This document shows, piece by piece, positions 19,709 to 26,078 of a DNA stretch of 48,162 nt. The DNA comes from Bdellovibrio sp. (GTDB taxonomy: Bacteria > Bdellovibrionota > Bacteriovoracia > Bacteriovoracales > Bacteriovoracaceae): contig DZBG01000007.1 of NCBI GenBank assembly GCA_022729855.1, positions 1 to 48,162 on the forward strand, written 5' to 3'. The notes under the pieces were generated by a model. It did no database searches, was not told the origin of the DNA, and saw only the letters and a program-made list of their open reading frames with translations. A program made the translations under genes and the position numbers. Positions within the stretch are counted from its first letter, which is position 1. The number at the start of each line of letters is the position of its first letter.

Positions 19709-21460
19709 TTAAAATGCTCGAACCCAACCAACATTCCATTGCGCTTGATCAAACTTCTTATTATCCCATTGATGATAAAAAAGTAATTCTGCTCGAATCC
19801 AATCATTATCTCCTAAGGAATAACGAAACTCTTCAGTGGATTCAAAGAATTGTTGATCCTTTGTTTTCTCCCAGCGTTGGGCAAAACGAAACTTTTGTAA
19901 AAAACTAAACTTTTCATACGTTCCAAGAATGATCCATTCGGGATCTAAATTAAATGCATAACCTTGAGCAAAGTGATTAGAAAAATCAAAATGACCTGTT
20001 AATAAAAAGCTTGTGACCAAACCTTCACTTAATTCAAAACTAATCCCTGCACCAGAGAGAATTTTGTCTAAACGTCTTCCGTTAACACTTATTTCATTTT
20101 GTTGATGAGAGAGCTCTCCCCTCCAACTCAAACGCCGTGACCAATATTTCCAGGGCGTAAATGATGAGGTATCAATCAATGTGAAGTTCTGAAGGTTTAA
20201 TTCATTTGATTTAGTCGAACGCAAAGTCACAGAAAGTAATTCCATCTTTGAATAAGGGAGATGCCCCTGAGGTGGATCAATCAGATCATGAGAAGCTGGT
20301 TTAAACTTGAATTGTGTTCCAAATTTTTTATTAATCTCACCGGCTCCCAACTCAAGCCTCATTGGCCCATGGGTTTGGGCGGGGTGATGTTTTAATTGAG
20401 GAACAATCACTTCGGTAACTTTCATTTTTGATTGCTCAATCAAAAGATGATGAAGCTCTTCTTTCTCTTCTTCATTCCAATTTTTTAAAGTCTGTTTTTT
20501 AAACTGCGCAACCTTAACTTTTGTCCAATTATTGTCTGGTCCTAATTTCTTATTGGTTTCATTAATTTCTCTATCTAAAGAAGCCCGGGACTTTACAAGG
20601 GCTATCATCTTGCTTTCTTCAATGGTCTTCATTGTTTCAGACGGGATGGTAATATAGTGATAGTCATCAGCGAGGTGAGAATCGATTCGGGCCAAATCAA
20701 GAAGGCGAAGCAGATAGTAAGAGCAGTTTTTTCCCAAAAAATAATAATCAAATGAACCGTTATTTCCTATTTCCCAAATAGCATCTAAGAGACGGTCAAT
20801 TTCATCAGGGGTTAAATTCAATTCGTACTCAAAAAGATCTCGTCCCTCACCATTACTGTACTCATTTACCTTGAGAAAATAAGGGGCAATATTAAAGAAG
20901 CCTTTATAGTAACCAAAAAGCCCTTTTAGTCCAAAAAAAAGACCTGTCTCTTTTTCTGTAATGGCCGCAAAGTTCACTCCATAATCAAGCAGTCTCTCAT
21001 CTTGTGGCCCATGAAGTTTTAAAAATGTATGTCCAAAGATAGACGCTGGATTATTTGAATAATATCCTGCAAATACAATGGATACCTTTTTGACGGCCAG
21101 TTGATTTTTCCAGGCGTAAAACTCTTCACACTCAGAATCATTTTTTGGCAGAGGCTCAATCTTATTTAGATATTTCCATCTTAAGGGATAAGCACAATTC
21201 GCTGGCAGCTTAAGGCTTCCAAATTTTTCATTGGTTTTAAAACGACGAAGACTTTCATCTAATTCTTTTTTGGGATCGATATTTCCAGAGGGTGATAGAT
21301 AGAATGATTTTTCGGAAACAAGGCCTTTATCACCTTCATACCAAAGAATCTTTTTCCAGTAGGGATCTAGAGAGGAGTTCGCAAATAACGGGCAGCTAAA
21401 AAGAAAGAGGGCCATTAAAAAAATGGCCCTCTGATTTTTTAAATTGAAGCGTAAGTACAT
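19709..21460 (-). CDS. DUF4105 protein: periplasmic Cys/His domain plus probable outer-membrane barrel (copy 1)
   Basis: A 583-aa exported protein. The signal peptide (residues 1-28) ends near LFANSS. The N-terminal half is a DUF4105 domain: His144 in SIFGHTFLKL, LLDYGVNFAA, RDLFEYELNLTP and Cys246 in GKNCSYYLLRLLDLA, a Cys/His pair consistent with a papain/NlpC-like fold. After a charged linker (about 290-370) the last 210 residues alternate in a beta-strand pattern and end in Phe, as in outer-membrane barrels. Role unknown; an envelope or peptidoglycan role is inferred. The start lies 22 nt inside the DUF3015 gene. A 626-aa paralog lies at 23621-25501. Confidence 0.8.
   Translation of the reverse strand: MYLRFNLKNQRAIFLMALFLFSCPLFANSSLDPYWKKILWYEGDKGLVSEKSFYLSPSGNIDPKKELDESLRRFKTNEKFGSLKLPANCAYPLRWKYLNKIEPLPKNDSECEEFYAWKNQLAVKKVSIVFAGYYSNNPASIFGHTFLKLHGPQDERLLDYGVNFAAITEKETGLFFGLKGLFGYYKGFFNIAPYFLKVNEYSNGEGRDLFEYELNLTPDEIDRLLDAIWEIGNNGSFDYYFLGKNCSYYLLRLLDLARIDSHLADDYHYITIPSETMKTIEESKMIALVKSRASLDREINETNKKLGPDNNWTKVKVAQFKKQTLKNWNEEEKEELHHLLIEQSKMKVTEVIVPQLKHHPAQTHGPMRLELGAGEINKKFGTQFKFKPASHDLIDPPQGHLPYSKMELLSVTLRSTKSNELNLQNFTLIDTSSFTPWKYWSRRLSWRGELSHQQNEISVNGRRLDKILSGAGISFELSEGLVTSFLLTGHFDFSNHFAQGYAFNLDPEWIILGTYEKFSFLQKFRFAQRWEKTKDQQFFESTEEFRYSLGDNDWIRAELLFYHQWDNKKFDQAQWNVGWVRAF
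21397..21432 (-). terminator. Intercistronic terminator-like hairpin inside the start of DUF4105 copy 1
   Basis: Reading on the minus strand, AGAGGGCCAT pairs perfectly over 10 bp with ATGGCCCTCT around TTTTTTA and is followed by TTCTTTTT, a standard intrinsic terminator. It begins 6 nt after the DUF3015 stop codon and lies within the first codons of the DUF4105 gene. It could make the downstream gene a low-level read-through product. On the + strand the stem is also followed by GATTTTTT, so it could work in both directions. Confidence 0.7.
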
Positions 21461-21921
21461 TGGCCCTGAAGAGAGCTATTCTCTTTAATAACTGCTTTCA
21501 CAGAATTAAGCATCTCAAGTGGAGTTGTGTTTGAAGTTGGAAAAATTTTAGAAAAGTTTTTCTGAGTTTCATTACTAAATTGTTTTTTCAAATTACTAGG
21601 ACAACCTAGTGCTTCTGCAAAAGTAGTAAGGTACTCGCCTTCTCCACGTGCCATATCGATTTTTAATTCTTCTTTATTAGCTTCAGCATAATAAACTGGC
21701 GCCATATCACGTTTTACAAGTGAATGTTGTGAACAACCAGATGTTCCTGATGTGATACCAAAGAGCTGAGATGAAAATGAATGATTTGTTGTTGAACGAA
21801 ATAATGCTGAAATAATTGTATTTTCTTTCCAGATTAAGCTTCCAAGTCCACATCCAGTTGAACTATCGGCCATTGCTGAAAATGATGTTACGAGAACCAC
21901 TATTGCTAAAATCTTCTTCAT
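21439..21921 (-). CDS. DUF3015 family exported protein (copy 1)
   Basis: A 160-aa secreted protein with a signal peptide ending near FSAMA. The DUF3015 hallmarks follow: GCGLGSLIW at the mature N-terminus, then a Thr/Ser-rich QLFGITSGTSGC block, and further cysteines near LGCPSN and QGC that may form disulfides. GGAGG lies 4 nt before the ATG, a strong site that suggests high expression. It is followed at once by a terminator-like hairpin and the DUF4105 gene. A paralog of the same pair lies at 25542-26006. Function unknown in the literature I know. Confidence 0.85.
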   Translation of the reverse strand: MKKILAIVVLVTSFSAMADSSTGCGLGSLIWKENTIISALFRSTTNHSFSSQLFGITSGTSGCSQHSLVKRDMAPVYYAEANKEELKIDMARGEGEYLTTFAEALGCPSNLKKQFSNETQKNFSKIFPTSNTTPLEMLNSVKAVIKENSSLQGQCTYASI

Positions 21922-21965
21922 AAAACCTCCGTATTTTAAGTTATTAACTTTATTATGAACTAATT

Positions 21966-22808
21966 TTAAAGAGAATCAATGAGTTTGATAAACTCAGTTC
22001 TATGCTTTCCTTCATCAATATGAAAAACATCAATATGCTGACCTTCATCAAGTTTCCAAATCCATTTCTTATTTGCTTTAGAATACTTATGAATTTTTTT
22101 TCCAAATTTAGCAGGAACAGCTTTATCTTTCTCACCAACAACTACAAGTAATGGCATTCTCACCTGATCAAGTGTGTCATCAGCAGCATAACTATCTGAA
22201 ACTAAGACGTAGGCCAGTGGACTAAAAGGAAATAAAAACCAGACTGAAGCAAGTTTATCAAACCCTATGTCTTGGTATGACATAAAGGTTGAGTCCATCA
22301 CAAGTAAAGAAACCTTATCTTTAAATTCAAAGTCAGCAATCGCACGCAATGAAATGATCCCACCAAGACTTTGACCATAAATAATAAACTTTTCTTTATC
22401 ATCTTTTTTTCGTTGATTAAAAAGCTCAAGTCCAAAATTCATGGCCGTCAAAGCATCTTCATAAATACCTTTCTGACTTGGATCCCCTTCTGACTTACCG
22501 TAACCACGGTAATCAAAAATAAAAACATCAAATCCTTCTTTGGTCGCCCAAGCAAGGTTAAGAAAATGTGAAGAAAGATTTTGCGCATTTCCATGAAAAT
22601 GAACAATGAGACCACGGCGTTTCACTGCAGGATCGGCCTTTACTAACCAACTATCAAGCTCAGTCCCGTCTTTACTTTTAAGCTTATAGTCTTGGTACTC
22701 TAGTTTGAACTGATCTGGAGTGTAGTACACATGCTTAGTGGGGTAATAAAAGAGGTGTCCGCAGCCACTAATGACAAACAAGACTGCTAGTAACAATAGG
22801 TTTTTCAT
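21966..22808 (-). CDS. Alpha/beta hydrolase lipoprotein
   Basis: A 280-aa protein of the ABHD13/BEM46-like hydrolase group. The N-terminus is a lipoprotein signal with Cys16 in VISGC. Motifs are the oxyanion HFHGNA (70-75), nucleophile Ser147 in YGQSLGG, an acid in VGEKDKAVP and a His in EGQHIDVF. I chose the ATG at 22808 because it gives the lipoprotein signal and has AAGGA upstream; a start at 22841 would put 11 polar residues in front. Attached to a membrane facing the periplasm, it likely acts on esters or lipids. It lies between the two DUF3015-DUF4105 cassettes and reads in the same direction. Confidence 0.83.
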   Translation of the reverse strand: MKNLLLLAVLFVISGCGHLFYYPTKHVYYTPDQFKLEYQDYKLKSKDGTELDSWLVKADPAVKRRGLIVHFHGNAQNLSSHFLNLAWATKEGFDVFIFDYRGYGKSEGDPSQKGIYEDALTAMNFGLELFNQRKKDDKEKFIIYGQSLGGIISLRAIADFEFKDKVSLLVMDSTFMSYQDIGFDKLASVWFLFPFSPLAYVLVSDSYAADDTLDQVRMPLLVVVGEKDKAVPAKFGKKIHKYSKANKKWIWKLDEGQHIDVFHIDEGKHRTEFIKLIDSL

Positions 22809-22889
22809 CTCTAATCCTTGATCTTGATCAAATCCTAACAAGCCTTCCTCCAGTAACTGAACTATCTTTGAGTTATCAGGGAGGACGTG

Positions 22890-23045
22890 ATGAACATATT
22901 CGCTAAAATATTACTAATGATCGTTTCACCAGCACTTCTTATTCTTTATTGGAAAAATGAACTTAAAGACCTTACTCTACATCAAAATCAAAATACTGAT
23001 GAGGATATGGTTCTTTCACTAATGAATAGTGCCACCATTCTTTAG
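22890..23045 (+). CDS. Small membrane protein gene (51 aa)
   Basis: A 51-codon open frame. GGGAGG (22879-22884) sits 5 nt before the ATG, one of the best ribosome binding sites in the window. The product has a hydrophobic helix at residues 3-21 (IFAKILLMIVSPALLILYW) followed by a charged tail with a short Gln/Asn run. Its last 74 nt overlap the 3' end of the convergent VanX-like gene. It is the only + strand gene in this minus-strand block. Function unknown; a small membrane regulator is only a guess. Confidence 0.55.
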   Translation: MNIFAKILLMIVSPALLILYWKNELKDLTLHQNQNTDEDMVLSLMNSATIL

Positions 23046-23634
23046 AGAAGTTTTTAAATCCATGTTTTTCCATAAGAGCTTTCAGTAGCTGTCTATTTTT
23101 TGTCTGCTCATGTGTAATATTATTATTTTCAGTATGAGACAGGTCATCAAAAAAATCAAAATGAGTTCCCATATCTAAACTCTCCCCCGTCTTACGGTGG
23201 GCCAGAGTCAAATCAAGTGCACTACCACGTGAGTGACTCGATTGTTTTGCAATATAACCGAGCTCAAAGAGTTCCGGTTTATTATGCTTAGGATAAAAAA
23301 TATCTTTAATCGCAAGATTAGATTCAGGTAGCTTTGCCCATTCCATAAAATAGGCCACGGCCTTAGCAGGTCTGTATCCATCAAAAATTTTAATCGTAAG
23401 GTCTTGCTTTAAAGCATCCTCTTGAACTTTACATAAAGCCTCCACAGCTTCTTTTGATGTAATAGCGGTGACTCTTTTATAACCACGAACAACAGTTCCT
23501 GTGAAATTCATCTCTGTCGCATAATCAGCATTGATCAGAATTGAGGGACAATATTGTTTAATATCGACAAAACCTTTTTCCATAGAAAATCCAAGTGTTG
23601 AAAAAAATAAAATCCATAAACTAATAATATACAT
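22972..23634 (-). CDS. VanX-like D-alanyl-D-alanine dipeptidase, exported
   Basis: A 220-aa zinc peptidase of family M15D, which cleaves D-Ala-D-Ala. An N-terminal hydrophobic signal is followed by the family motifs: Arg88 in DGYRPAKA, zinc ligands His134 and Asp141 in SSHSRGSALD, catalytic Glu199 and zinc ligand His202 in EWWH. I chose the ATG at 23634 because GGGG precedes it; the longer frame to 23679 would put a polar stretch before the signal. The start lies 14 nt inside the DUF4105 copy 2 gene, which implies translational coupling and links that protein to cell-wall peptides. In this organism it probably recycles or remodels wall rather than giving vancomycin resistance. Confidence 0.87.
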   Translation of the reverse strand: MYIISLWILFFSTLGFSMEKGFVDIKQYCPSILINADYATEMNFTGTVVRGYKRVTAITSKEAVEALCKVQEDALKQDLTIKIFDGYRPAKAVAYFMEWAKLPESNLAIKDIFYPKHNKPELFELGYIAKQSSHSRGSALDLTLAHRKTGESLDMGTHFDFFDDLSHTENNNITHEQTKNRQLLKALMEKHGFKNFSKEWWHYSLVKEPYPHQYFDFDVE

Positions 23635-25501
23635 AAAACCCCAGCTCACTCCATTGATTCGTTTGTGACTTAATATCATACCAATCAGTTTTCATGAAAA
23701 GACTCCATGTCTTATTCATATTCCATCTAAACTCTCCTCCACGCTGAAAAGCTGTTGAAGAAAAATCATTGTCAGTAAAATAGTGACGCCATTTATATGA
23801 AGTAACGAGTCCAAGACTTAAGTGATCACTAAAAACAAAGCGTGTTGAAATTTCTGGACCTGCCGCCATCCTCCAGCCATGTGCAAACTGATCTTGCTGT
23901 GTGAGTTCAACCTTAGATAAAAGTGTTAGTAGGTTCCATTGATTTTGTCCTAATCCAACAGTTCCCCCACCACCTAACTCAATCGTACTCCCAAGCTGAT
24001 CTTTAAATGATTCATCTCTTAAAGTCCCCATTCCAATTCTGGCATTCCAAGAAAAGTTTTGCTGCCATGGAGTCACGGGCTGATAACTTTTCACTCTAAA
24101 AATATCGAGATGATTGATCAAAAGTTTTCGAGGAGCATGATAGTCTTGTTGTTGAAGACGAAGACCAACATCACCAAAAGTAATTTCAGAGAATGGTGGT
24201 TGTCCTGGAAGTGGGTCGAGCATATCATGAAGAGCAAATCGCATTGAAAGAGTTTGATAGCTTCCTTCTCCTGCACTATATCCATGGCCGAGTCCTACAC
24301 GTTGCGATCGGTGGGCCTGATCAGGAAACATATCTTTTCTGACTTTATATTCTTTATCTTTAGAAATTTCAGGGTTTTCAGCACGAATCATTAACAGTTC
24401 ATGCTTATCATTTCTTTTTTGACCTTTTTCTAAAAGAAGATCTTTGGCAAAAAGAAAATCCATGGCCTCAATTGCACTATCCAAAATTGTCGCTTGTTGA
24501 GCAGAAGTGGTAAGATCTTTTAAACTGCTTTCACATTTTTTAGGATCAGCGGCAAGATTTTTTACAAGAGTGAGTTCTTTAACACTCATCTCTTTTGTTC
24601 CAGCTTCTAGTCTTGTGAGAGCAGAAGGACGGAATTTCTTCTCAATAACCAGTCCCTCTTCCTCTACTGCGGCTCTTACTGTATCCGCAGGAATAACATA
24701 AAAAGGAATACGATCCACAAGTCTAAACTTAGGATCAACGAGATCAATCATGGCAAGAATTTGATATGAACAATTCTCTGTAAAATAATAATAATCAAAA
24801 TTTGTCTGACTCATCTCCCAAATATGGGCCACCATTAAATCAATTTGTGCTTGAGAGAGATTTAATTCATACTCCCAAAGATCACGAGATTCATGATCAT
24901 TGTATTCTCTGACTTTGTAATAATATGGTACTGAAGTGAAGACACCATTAAACATTCCTGCGATCGCCTTCACGGCATAGATAAGAGCATTATCTGTATC
25001 CATTAAAGCGGCATAATTAATTCCGTAATCCAAAAGCTCAGTTCTATCTTCTTTCTTTGCTCCATGGGCATGTCGATTCATTCGAAGGAATGTATGTCCA
25101 AAAGCTGAAGCAGGAGTATTGATATAATAAGACGAGAAAATAAGGCTTGCTGATTTTGCCTGAAGCTTATCCGAAAAGACTAAAAACTCAGTACATTCTT
25201 TAAAACTCTGGGCAGGTAATCCCAAGATTTTTGATAACCAAATATATCTGGCCGGAAAACGACAAATCGCCGACTGATTATTTTGTTTAAAGGCTTCTAC
25301 TGTTTTTTCTAATTCATGAAGCGGATGTGTTTTTCCGTCTTTAGAAAGAAAGAATTTATCATTGTCTGCTTCACTCTCCACACCAAACAATGTGGGTTTG
25401 TAATGAACAAGCCTTTGCCAGGTAATGTCTTTAGATAATGAAGGGAGATCTTGTGAGAAGGCCGAGAAACTAAGGAATAAGAGAAAAAATGTTATTTTCA
25501 T
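23621..25501 (-). CDS. DUF4105 protein with C-terminal barrel-like region (copy 2)
   Basis: A 626-aa paralog of the 19709-21460 gene. It has a signal peptide (residues 1-17) and a DUF4105 domain with His136 in SAFGHTFLRM, LLDYGINYAAL, RDLWEYELNLS and Cys244 in TENCSYQILAMIDL, then a long charged linker. The last 220 residues have alternating beta pattern and aromatic girdles and end in two Tyr, suggesting an outer-membrane barrel. Both paralogs keep the His/Cys pair and the flanking motifs while the barrel part differs strongly. The gene is preceded by DUF3015 copy 2 and overlaps the VanX-like gene. Confidence 0.8.
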   Translation of the reverse strand: MKITFFLLFLSFSAFSQDLPSLSKDITWQRLVHYKPTLFGVESEADNDKFFLSKDGKTHPLHELEKTVEAFKQNNQSAICRFPARYIWLSKILGLPAQSFKECTEFLVFSDKLQAKSASLIFSSYYINTPASAFGHTFLRMNRHAHGAKKEDRTELLDYGINYAALMDTDNALIYAVKAIAGMFNGVFTSVPYYYKVREYNDHESRDLWEYELNLSQAQIDLMVAHIWEMSQTNFDYYYFTENCSYQILAMIDLVDPKFRLVDRIPFYVIPADTVRAAVEEEGLVIEKKFRPSALTRLEAGTKEMSVKELTLVKNLAADPKKCESSLKDLTTSAQQATILDSAIEAMDFLFAKDLLLEKGQKRNDKHELLMIRAENPEISKDKEYKVRKDMFPDQAHRSQRVGLGHGYSAGEGSYQTLSMRFALHDMLDPLPGQPPFSEITFGDVGLRLQQQDYHAPRKLLINHLDIFRVKSYQPVTPWQQNFSWNARIGMGTLRDESFKDQLGSTIELGGGGTVGLGQNQWNLLTLLSKVELTQQDQFAHGWRMAAGPEISTRFVFSDHLSLGLVTSYKWRHYFTDNDFSSTAFQRGGEFRWNMNKTWSLFMKTDWYDIKSQTNQWSELGFYVYY

Positions 25502-25502
25502 G

Positions 25503-25534
25503 AATGGGACCCGCTTTTATTTGCAGGTCCCATT
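25503..25534 (-). promoter_or_regulatory. 12-bp hairpin directly in front of DUF4105 copy 2
   Basis: Positions 25503-25514 and 25523-25534 form a 12-bp stem with one G-U pair around an 8-nt loop, in the gap between the DUF3015 stop and the DUF4105 start. The stem ends 1 nt before the ATG, so the ribosome binding region is inside the 3' arm. There is no T-run. It may limit translation or protect the DUF3015 message. It occupies the same junction as the terminator-like hairpin of copy 1, with unrelated sequence. Confidence 0.6.
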
Positions 25535-25541
25535 ATAAGAA

Positions 25542-26006
25542 CTAGATATTAGTGTTGCAAGAAGTAGAAGCAACAGAGTTTAAGCTGTTTGTGATTTCTA
25601 CTGAAGAAGCGTCAGCGTTAGAAAAAATGCTTCTGTAGTTTGATTTAAGAGCTTTTCCGAAATCAGCAGTATTTGAACAACCATAAACTTTTGAAAGGTT
25701 CATGATAGTTTCGCCATTTCCTTTAGCGATATCGTTAGCAAGAGCAAGCTTGTTAGCTTCAACATAAGCTTGAACTTGAGATACTTTTAGAGGAGCTGGT
25801 GAATCACAGTTAGATGTACCAGTCGTGATACCAAAAGTTTGAGATCCAGAAGTACCGTTTGTAGTAGCAGTAAGAACTTGCTTCCACCAAGTTTGGTCAC
25901 CTTCGAAAATCATTGAACCAAGACCACATCCTGCTGAACCGTATTTCGCAGCAAAAGCAGAAGAAGCCATAAGAGCTAGAGAAACAACAACCAGAATTTT
26001 TTTCAT
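25542..26006 (-). CDS. DUF3015 family exported protein (copy 2)
   Basis: A 154-aa secreted protein with a signal peptide ending at SAFA. The DUF3015 motifs are clearer than in copy 1: YGSAGCGLGSMIF, then TNGTSGSQTFGITTGTSNC, with cysteines later near YGC and SC. I chose the ATG at 26006 because GGAG lies 6 nt upstream; an in-frame ATG at 26018 would add four residues. Codon use looks more selective than in the neighbours (frequent GCA/GCT, AAG, GTA), compatible with high expression. It is the first gene of the DUF3015-DUF4105-VanX-like run. Confidence 0.87.
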   Translation of the reverse strand: MKKILVVVSLALMASSAFAAKYGSAGCGLGSMIFEGDQTWWKQVLTATTNGTSGSQTFGITTGTSNCDSPAPLKVSQVQAYVEANKLALANDIAKGNGETIMNLSKVYGCSNTADFGKALKSNYRSIFSNADASSVEITNSLNSVASTSCNTNI

Positions 26007-26078
26007 GTAACACTCCATTGTAAAGGGTTGGTTGATAAGGACTAAAATTAATAAGCTTTATTATCAATGGAGGGGACT

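Follow-up and report, generated by a model that had tools for sequence, protein, structure and literature searches.

A putative two-component outer-membrane system: obligate pairing of DUF3015 and barrel-type DUF4105 genes in Bdellovibrionota

Introduction

What do a small exported protein of the DUF3015 family and a large protein of the DUF4105 family do together, and how did a Bdellovibrio genome come to encode them side by side, twice, in one neighborhood? The question is raised by a stretch of 48,162 nucleotides (hereafter the window) that spans positions 1 to 48,162 of contig DZBG01000007.1 in the 2.8 Mb genome of Bdellovibrio sp. (GenBank assembly GCA_022729855.1). A first-pass annotation, made from the sequence alone, read the locus as a duplicated cassette in which a periplasmic cysteine enzyme held by an outer-membrane barrel works with a secreted partner on wall peptides. 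Our analyses show that the DUF3015–DUF4105 pair is obligate, and lead us to propose, with a probability of about 0.6, that each pair would form a two-component outer-membrane system whose enzyme, an acyltransferase or phospholipase, works with, or on, DUF3015, as suggested by sequence, structure prediction and analogy with known enzymes. The literature passages found to name DUF4105 or DUF3015 describe neither the pair nor the barrel form of the enzyme.

An obligate gene pair

The two pairs lie in the same direction, on the minus strand and at the positions given in the first-pass annotation, within the gene order DUF3015-2, DUF4105-2, VanX-like dipeptidase, lipoprotein alpha/beta-hydrolase, DUF3015-1, DUF4105-1; the hydrolase and VanX genes sit between both pairs, downstream of copy 2. 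The genes of the pairs are:

25542..26006, minus strand: DUF3015 copy 2, 154 amino acids; AxA-type signal peptide recognized by eye; invariant GCGLG motif (Cys27); PF11220, E 2e-41
23621..25501, minus strand: DUF4105 copy 2, 626 amino acids; signal peptide, DUF7843, Lnb_N (His136, Tyr237, Cys244) and DUF7840 predicted 12-strand barrel (397-626)
21439..21921, minus strand: DUF3015 copy 1, 160 amino acids; PF11220, E 9e-42
19709..21460, minus strand: DUF4105 copy 1, 583 amino acids; DUF7843, Lnb_N (His144, Cys246, Tyr at -7) and DUF7840 predicted barrel

DUF3015-1 and DUF4105-1 overlap by 22 nucleotides, and a gap of 40 nucleotides separates DUF3015-2 from DUF4105-2. Both small proteins are full members of PF11220, a family without assigned function (142.7 and 141.4 bits, above the curated cut-off of 25). 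Both large ones match Lnb_N (PF13387; E 2.5e-46 for copy 1 and 5.6e-52 for copy 2; 157.9 and 176.3 bits, curated cut-off 22.2) together with PF25222 (DUF7840) and PF25225 (DUF7843).

Across 192 Bdellovibrionota genomes, with PF25222 taken as the barrel domain, 121 carry both barrel and DUF3015, one the barrel alone, two DUF3015 alone and 68 neither (Fisher test, p=1.7e-48, a value made optimistic by kinship among genomes), a pattern that persists across the sampled families of the phylum. DUF3015 is present in all 122 genomes with strong Lnb_N matches compared with 1 of the 70 others, and 27 of the 28 genomes whose Lnb_N matches are all weak lack it. The two genes are also neighbors: in at least 121 of the best 150 DUF4105 genes listed, DUF3015 lies within 2.5 kb, upstream on the same strand in 114 and downstream in 6. 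Across phyla, an alignment-based profile scan of GTDB contigs recovered 80 DUF4105 loci. Four of these are truncated where their contig stops; among the 76 evaluable ones, DUF3015 adjoins DUF4105 in 75 and is missing from one. Judging by their record titles, the loci include ones from Myxococcales, Nitrospira, Nitrospinales, Nitrosospira, Vibrio, Marinobacter, Alloalcanivorax and Pseudomonas. The same gene pair is seen in annotated records of Salinivibrio and Pseudoalteromonas, and in an Acinetobacter baumannii locus (L257) DUF3015 lies just upstream of DUF4105. The adjacency survey, which the first-pass annotation had named as a possible refutation of its proposal, thus came out strongly in its favor, and a direct partnership between the two proteins appears very likely. 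Since they almost never occur apart, DUF3015 is probably a substrate or an activator of the enzyme. Among the matches listed, at least 12 loci carry tandem DUF3015 genes upstream of a single DUF4105 (genomes G079, G019, G109, G021, G183, G163, G120, G113, G093, G091, G062 and G154), an arrangement more in keeping with a substrate than with a subunit in one-to-one ratio. Such tandems would be explained if one enzyme serves several DUF3015 proteins.

A few loci depart from this arrangement. On the A. baumannii plasmid pJ9-3 (L254:4755-10180), DUF4105 lies with the beta-lactamase gene blaADC-176 between two ISAba1 elements and without a DUF3015 of its own; the mobile unit seems to have picked up one gene of the pair but not the other. 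A metagenome-assembled contig titled Streptomyces griseus (L088) bears the barrel gene pair where an outer membrane is not expected, and is probably a mislabelled bin. The window genome itself holds a weak, solitary DUF3015 relative (L006:1411-1869, G000:C138, minus strand) without GCGLG and with no DUF4105 on its contig. It also encodes a third, weakly matching Lnb_N protein (L003:87-2000, G000:C58, minus strand) that has a DUF7844 N-terminal region and a HELTH motif of the HExxH type, but no barrel domain and no DUF3015 neighbor within the contig stretch examined; its sequence makes a metallopeptidase-acyltransferase fusion possible.

Two ancient paralogous pairs

The copies are homologous (29% identity over 474 amino acids, E 3e-62, for DUF4105; 35%, E 1e-25, for DUF3015), and the distances between them, 0.735 and 0.64 respectively, exceed the distance of each copy to genes of other genera. 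In the 18 genomes with two full pairs, DUF3015 falls in the lineage of its neighboring DUF4105 in 82 of 82 quartets. This matching indicates that the window copies are, on sequence evidence, ancient paralogous pairs, and that their proximity alone is local. Together with the distances, it leads us to reject a recent local duplication, a correction to the duplicated cassette of the first-pass annotation. Elsewhere the copies are far apart in most genomes, and among the genomes listed DUF4105 genes lie less than 12 kb from each other in only three. The annotation was right that the barrels have diverged far more than the Cys/His domains (20% versus 39% identity between the window copies), but this is nothing special to the window, as the family-wide values are 21.5% and 42%.

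A predicted barrel anchor and a probable lipid-type active site

Lnb_N, DUF7843 and DUF7840 occur together in 25 of 25 homologues. An AlphaFold2 model of copy 2, built on the 25-sequence alignment (predicted local distance difference test, pLDDT, 88; predicted template modelling score, pTM, 0.87), has 12 C-terminal strands that form a barrel at residues 397-626, for which VIA-align gives Z 15.6 with EstA, 14.6 with NanC, 13.7 with FapF and 11.8 with OMPLA. With a signal peptide recognized by eye and a C-terminal Phe or Tyr in 125 of 144 homologues, the model gives high confidence to a barrel anchor in the outer membrane, as the first-pass annotation had supposed.

The His/Cys pairs it had singled out (His144/Cys246 and His136/Cys244) are likewise correct, and His136, Tyr237, Asn243 and Cys244 are invariant in 144 of 144 full-length homologues. 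His precedes Cys in both copies, which is the order of permuted NlpC/P60 enzymes (PPNE), the reverse of the canonical one, and no match to canonical NlpC/P60 (PF00877) was found at E<=1. In the model, His136 starts a strand (136-143) and Cys244 stands at the N-terminus of a helix (244-255), as expected for a permuted fold. Tyr237, which corresponds to the further conserved Tyr that permuted enzymes have shortly ahead of the Cys, lies 7 residues before Cys244, like Y154 and C161 of LRAT (PMC3142127), and the His-Cys spacing of copy 2, 108 residues, equals that of Tox-Act1 (H43/C151). Pfam has renamed DUF4105 (PF13387) Lnb_N, and passages of PMC12994826 report DUF4105 as the lipoprotein N-acyltransferase Lnb of Bacteroides and place it, in a 2026 phylogeny, among the permuted NlpC/P60 clades as sister to the phospholipase Tox-Act1. 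The permuted group is lipid-acting and has a hydrophobic S1 pocket (PMC3142127). The DUF4105 active site would therefore belong to a lipid-acting and not to a wall-cutting family, and by analogy with these relatives we consider lipid or acyl chemistry likely.

The small partner and its expression

Codon adaptation, scored against the ribosomal-protein region of the window genome itself (mean of the ribosomal set 0.703), puts DUF3015-2 at the top (0.825) and DUF3015-1 in third place (0.743) among the 48 open reading frames of the window, which supports the earlier description of these proteins as strongly translated. In 34 of 50 DUF3015–DUF4105 junctions the DUF3015 stop is followed by a hairpin of at least 6 base pairs (bp), 4 of them GC, whereas other close junctions of genes on the same strand have one in 74 of 360 cases (p=4e-11). 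For hairpins that also carry a T-rich tail, the counts are 24 of 50 and 23 of 360 (p=1e-12). Both window junctions bear one, with the T-rich tail at copy 1 only:

25503..25534, minus strand: hairpin of the DUF3015-2/DUF4105-2 junction, directly before the DUF4105-2 start, without T-run; minimum free energy (MFE) -22.9 kcal/mol, z -6.0
21406..21432, minus strand: terminator-like hairpin of 11 bp with U-rich tail, right after the DUF3015-1 stop and within the first DUF4105-1 codons; MFE -21.5 kcal/mol, z -5.4

As the median gap between the two genes, 34 nucleotides, leaves little room for a promoter, partial termination with an excess of DUF3015 would be the simplest reading, DUF3015 probably being abundant and the enzyme rarer. 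The copy-2 hairpin, which ends right before the DUF4105-2 start and has no T-run, may act on translation rather than on termination.

The DUF3015 model shows a confident C-terminal helical bundle (72-150). Among 169 homologues, Cys27 of the GCGLG motif is invariant (169/169) and Cys67 nearly so (166/169), and Cys110 and Cys150 are kept or lost as a pair (113 with both, 53 with neither, 3 with one), a pattern that suggests a disulfide between them. We rejected a lipobox reading of Cys27, as in some homologues this Cys lies about 20 residues past the apparent signal-peptide cleavage site.

Neighboring genes and alternative explanations

PADLOC gave no credible defence-system match. Two further genes stand in the locus:

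22972..23634, minus strand: VanX-like D-Ala-D-Ala dipeptidase (Peptidase_M15); SxHxxGxAxD and ExWH motifs; PF01427, E 1.7e-46; lineage-limited neighbor
21966..22808, minus strand: lipoprotein alpha/beta-hydrolase, 280 amino acids; lipobox ISGC and GQSLG nucleophile elbow; Hydrolase_4, E 2e-15

The hydrolase recurs as a third component of the module: of the 76 loci whose sequence extends far enough, 19 have it as the next gene downstream of DUF4105 and 15 others have it within 3.5 kb. The window genome has one copy, and among 39 genomes (the window genome and relatives) it is nearly always single-copy where found; several of these single copies lie, by their coordinates, beside DUF4105 (G028, G112, G124, G153 and G014). 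The closest sequence to it in the PDB is an esterase, with monoacylglycerol lipase among weaker matches. Such a neighbor could act on lysolipid, which bears on the alternative that survives best, namely an OMPLA-like phospholipase that clears misplaced phospholipid and for which DUF3015 is an activator or a carrier of lysolipid or fatty acids, and not a substrate. The likeness of the 12-strand barrel to OMPLA, the phospholipase nature of the sister clade (passages of PMC12994826) and an abundant helical partner that would suit a carrier all point the same way; however, the similarity of the barrel fold is generic and no lipid pocket is shown in DUF3015, and we hold this explanation to be a serious one that is nonetheless unlikely to be right.

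Could the enzyme instead be a plain Lnb, that is, a general N-acyltransferase of the lipoprotein pool that works in the outer membrane and has DUF3015 for a chaperone? The shared Lnb_N domain and the experimental identification of Lnb in Bacteroides, as cited in passages of PMC12994826, would agree with this, but Lnt scores above its curated cut-off in 189 of the 192 genomes of the phylum, the window genome included, single genomes hold up to eight Lnb_N copies, and the literature passages found describe no obligate partner for Lnb. The defining trait of Lnb, to supply N-acylation where Lnt is missing, is absent here; with a canonical Lnt present, DUF4105 is no substitute for it, and we judge this explanation improbable.

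Action on wall peptides, the last part of the first-pass proposal, fared worse than the rest of that envelope system, whose periplasmic His/Cys enzyme, predicted barrel anchor and secreted DUF3015 partner all find support. A barrel-held cysteine peptidase or amidase that cuts or transfers wall peptides together with DUF3015 and VanX would be in keeping with the papain-like superfamily and with the VanX-like protein, whose zinc and catalytic motifs are intact (a Peptidase_M15 dipeptidase with 213 bits to NF033115, under the cut-off of 320) and whose gene overlaps DUF4105-2 by 14 nucleotides, as the annotation had noted, if it starts at 23634. Against it stand the permuted, lipid-acting catalytic order, the lack of any match of DUF4105 to Pfam peptidoglycan-peptidase models, and synteny: a VanX-like gene, the chief ground for linking the system to the wall, adjoins DUF4105 in only 6 of the 80 loci, all among the closest matches to the window, and the recurrent neighbor is the hydrolase. 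VanX is a local addition, its place as a core part of the system is rejected on this synteny, and the peptidase explanation appears very improbable. Equally so is a secretion system in which DUF3015 would leave through the barrel as a pore and be processed by the cysteine domain during its exit. In its favor, the abundant secreted partner is tightly matched to its own barrel, and the amyloid exporter FapF is among the structures that this barrel resembles, but FapF similarity is common to unrelated porins and there is no evidence for an open pore or for surface DUF3015.

Discussion

We favor a two-component outer-membrane system that would work as follows. DUF4105 is exported and inserts in the outer membrane through its predicted 12-strand C-terminal barrel, which would leave the permuted NlpC/P60-type cysteine domain in the periplasm. 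There, if the chemistry of the family applies, His136 would activate Cys244, which would form a thioester with an acyl chain taken over from a phospholipid and pass this chain either to an acceptor, as an acyltransferase, or to water, as a phospholipase. DUF3015 would be the small, exported, disulfide-containing partner, produced in excess. Its gene stands ahead of DUF4105 and in most genomes a hairpin, often terminator-like, precedes the latter, so that read-through would yield less of the enzyme. The most likely roles of DUF3015 would be those of a dedicated substrate and acyl acceptor or of an activator and carrier of the enzyme; that it is an acceptor rather than an activator is a tentative and rather doubtful choice. 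The hydrolase may plausibly take part in this process by removing acyl groups or lysolipid, and the two window pairs presumably differ in acceptors or conditions. In its most specific form, Sec-exported DUF3015 would be acylated in the outer membrane by the barrel-anchored acyltransferase, without Lgt, Lsp or Lnt and most simply on Cys27 or on the mature N-terminus, with the hydrolase as deacylase; this would amount to a second route by which bacteria lipidate proteins, a scheme that we consider distinctly unlikely to be correct in full.

Several observations weigh against the two-component proposal. The window genome carries a canonical Lnt (231.5 bits) and hence has no need of a second enzyme for lipoprotein N-acylation. 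The putative catalytic fold is assigned from the published family placement, the motif order and the predicted order of secondary-structure elements; when hidden Markov models of the catalytic domain were compared with those of permuted (PF05708) and canonical (PF00877) members from the same phylum, itself a weak comparison, no signal appeared in either direction, and the Foldseek and VIA-align matches are essentially barrels alone, as the barrel fills the lists. No sequence relative of DUF4105 or DUF3015 was found in the PDB, the glycine-rich N-terminal half of DUF3015 is poorly modelled, and a search with its fold found nothing below E 2.9. Codon adaptation and hairpins are indications, not measurements, of an expression ratio, and the 82 quartets share genomes (n=18) and hence are not independent tests. 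We also know of no activity for any barrel-type DUF4105 member.

Comparison with known systems helps to delimit the proposal. OMPLA/PldA (1qd6) shares the 12-strand outer-membrane barrel and, as proposed here, acyl chemistry, but its active site lies within the barrel, whereas that of DUF4105 is predicted in a separate periplasmic cysteine domain. Lnb, the lipoprotein N-acyltransferase of Bacteroides (Armbruster 2024, as cited in passages of PMC12994826), shares, at the domain level at which we compared them, the catalytic domain and its conserved His and Cys; the window proteins add the DUF7840 barrel, DUF7843 and the obligate DUF3015, in a genome that keeps canonical Lnt. Tox-Act1, a type VI secretion system phospholipase effector of Salmonella, is also a permuted NlpC/P60 protein, of the sister clade and with the His-Cys spacing of copy 2 (passages of PMC12994826), but it serves as an antibacterial toxin and has a matching immunity protein, whereas DUF4105 with its barrel resembles a resident envelope protein and has no secretion-system context that we could see. 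LnsAB of Staphylococcus aureus (PMC7387801) offers a precedent, since there too a permuted NlpC/P60 acyltransferase requires a second protein; the partner in that case is unrelated to DUF3015, LnsB being a CPBP-type integral membrane protein in contrast to the small exported DUF3015, and no barrel is described for LnsA.

DUF3015 and barrel-type DUF4105 (DUF7840/DUF7843), families of unassigned function, thus gain a shared and testable role. Their obligate two-component system is found in Bdellovibrionota and, by adjacency, also in Myxococcota, Nitrospirota, Nitrospinota and Beta- and Gammaproteobacteria (including Vibrio, Marinobacter, Pseudomonas and Acinetobacter), which sets the recently described Lnb family in a far wider context than Bacteroides. 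If the acyl chemistry is true, a catalytic cysteine domain under a barrel would be a new type of outer-membrane enzyme beside the few known ones (OMPLA, PagP, PagL and LpxR), and one at work in Lnt-bearing organisms.

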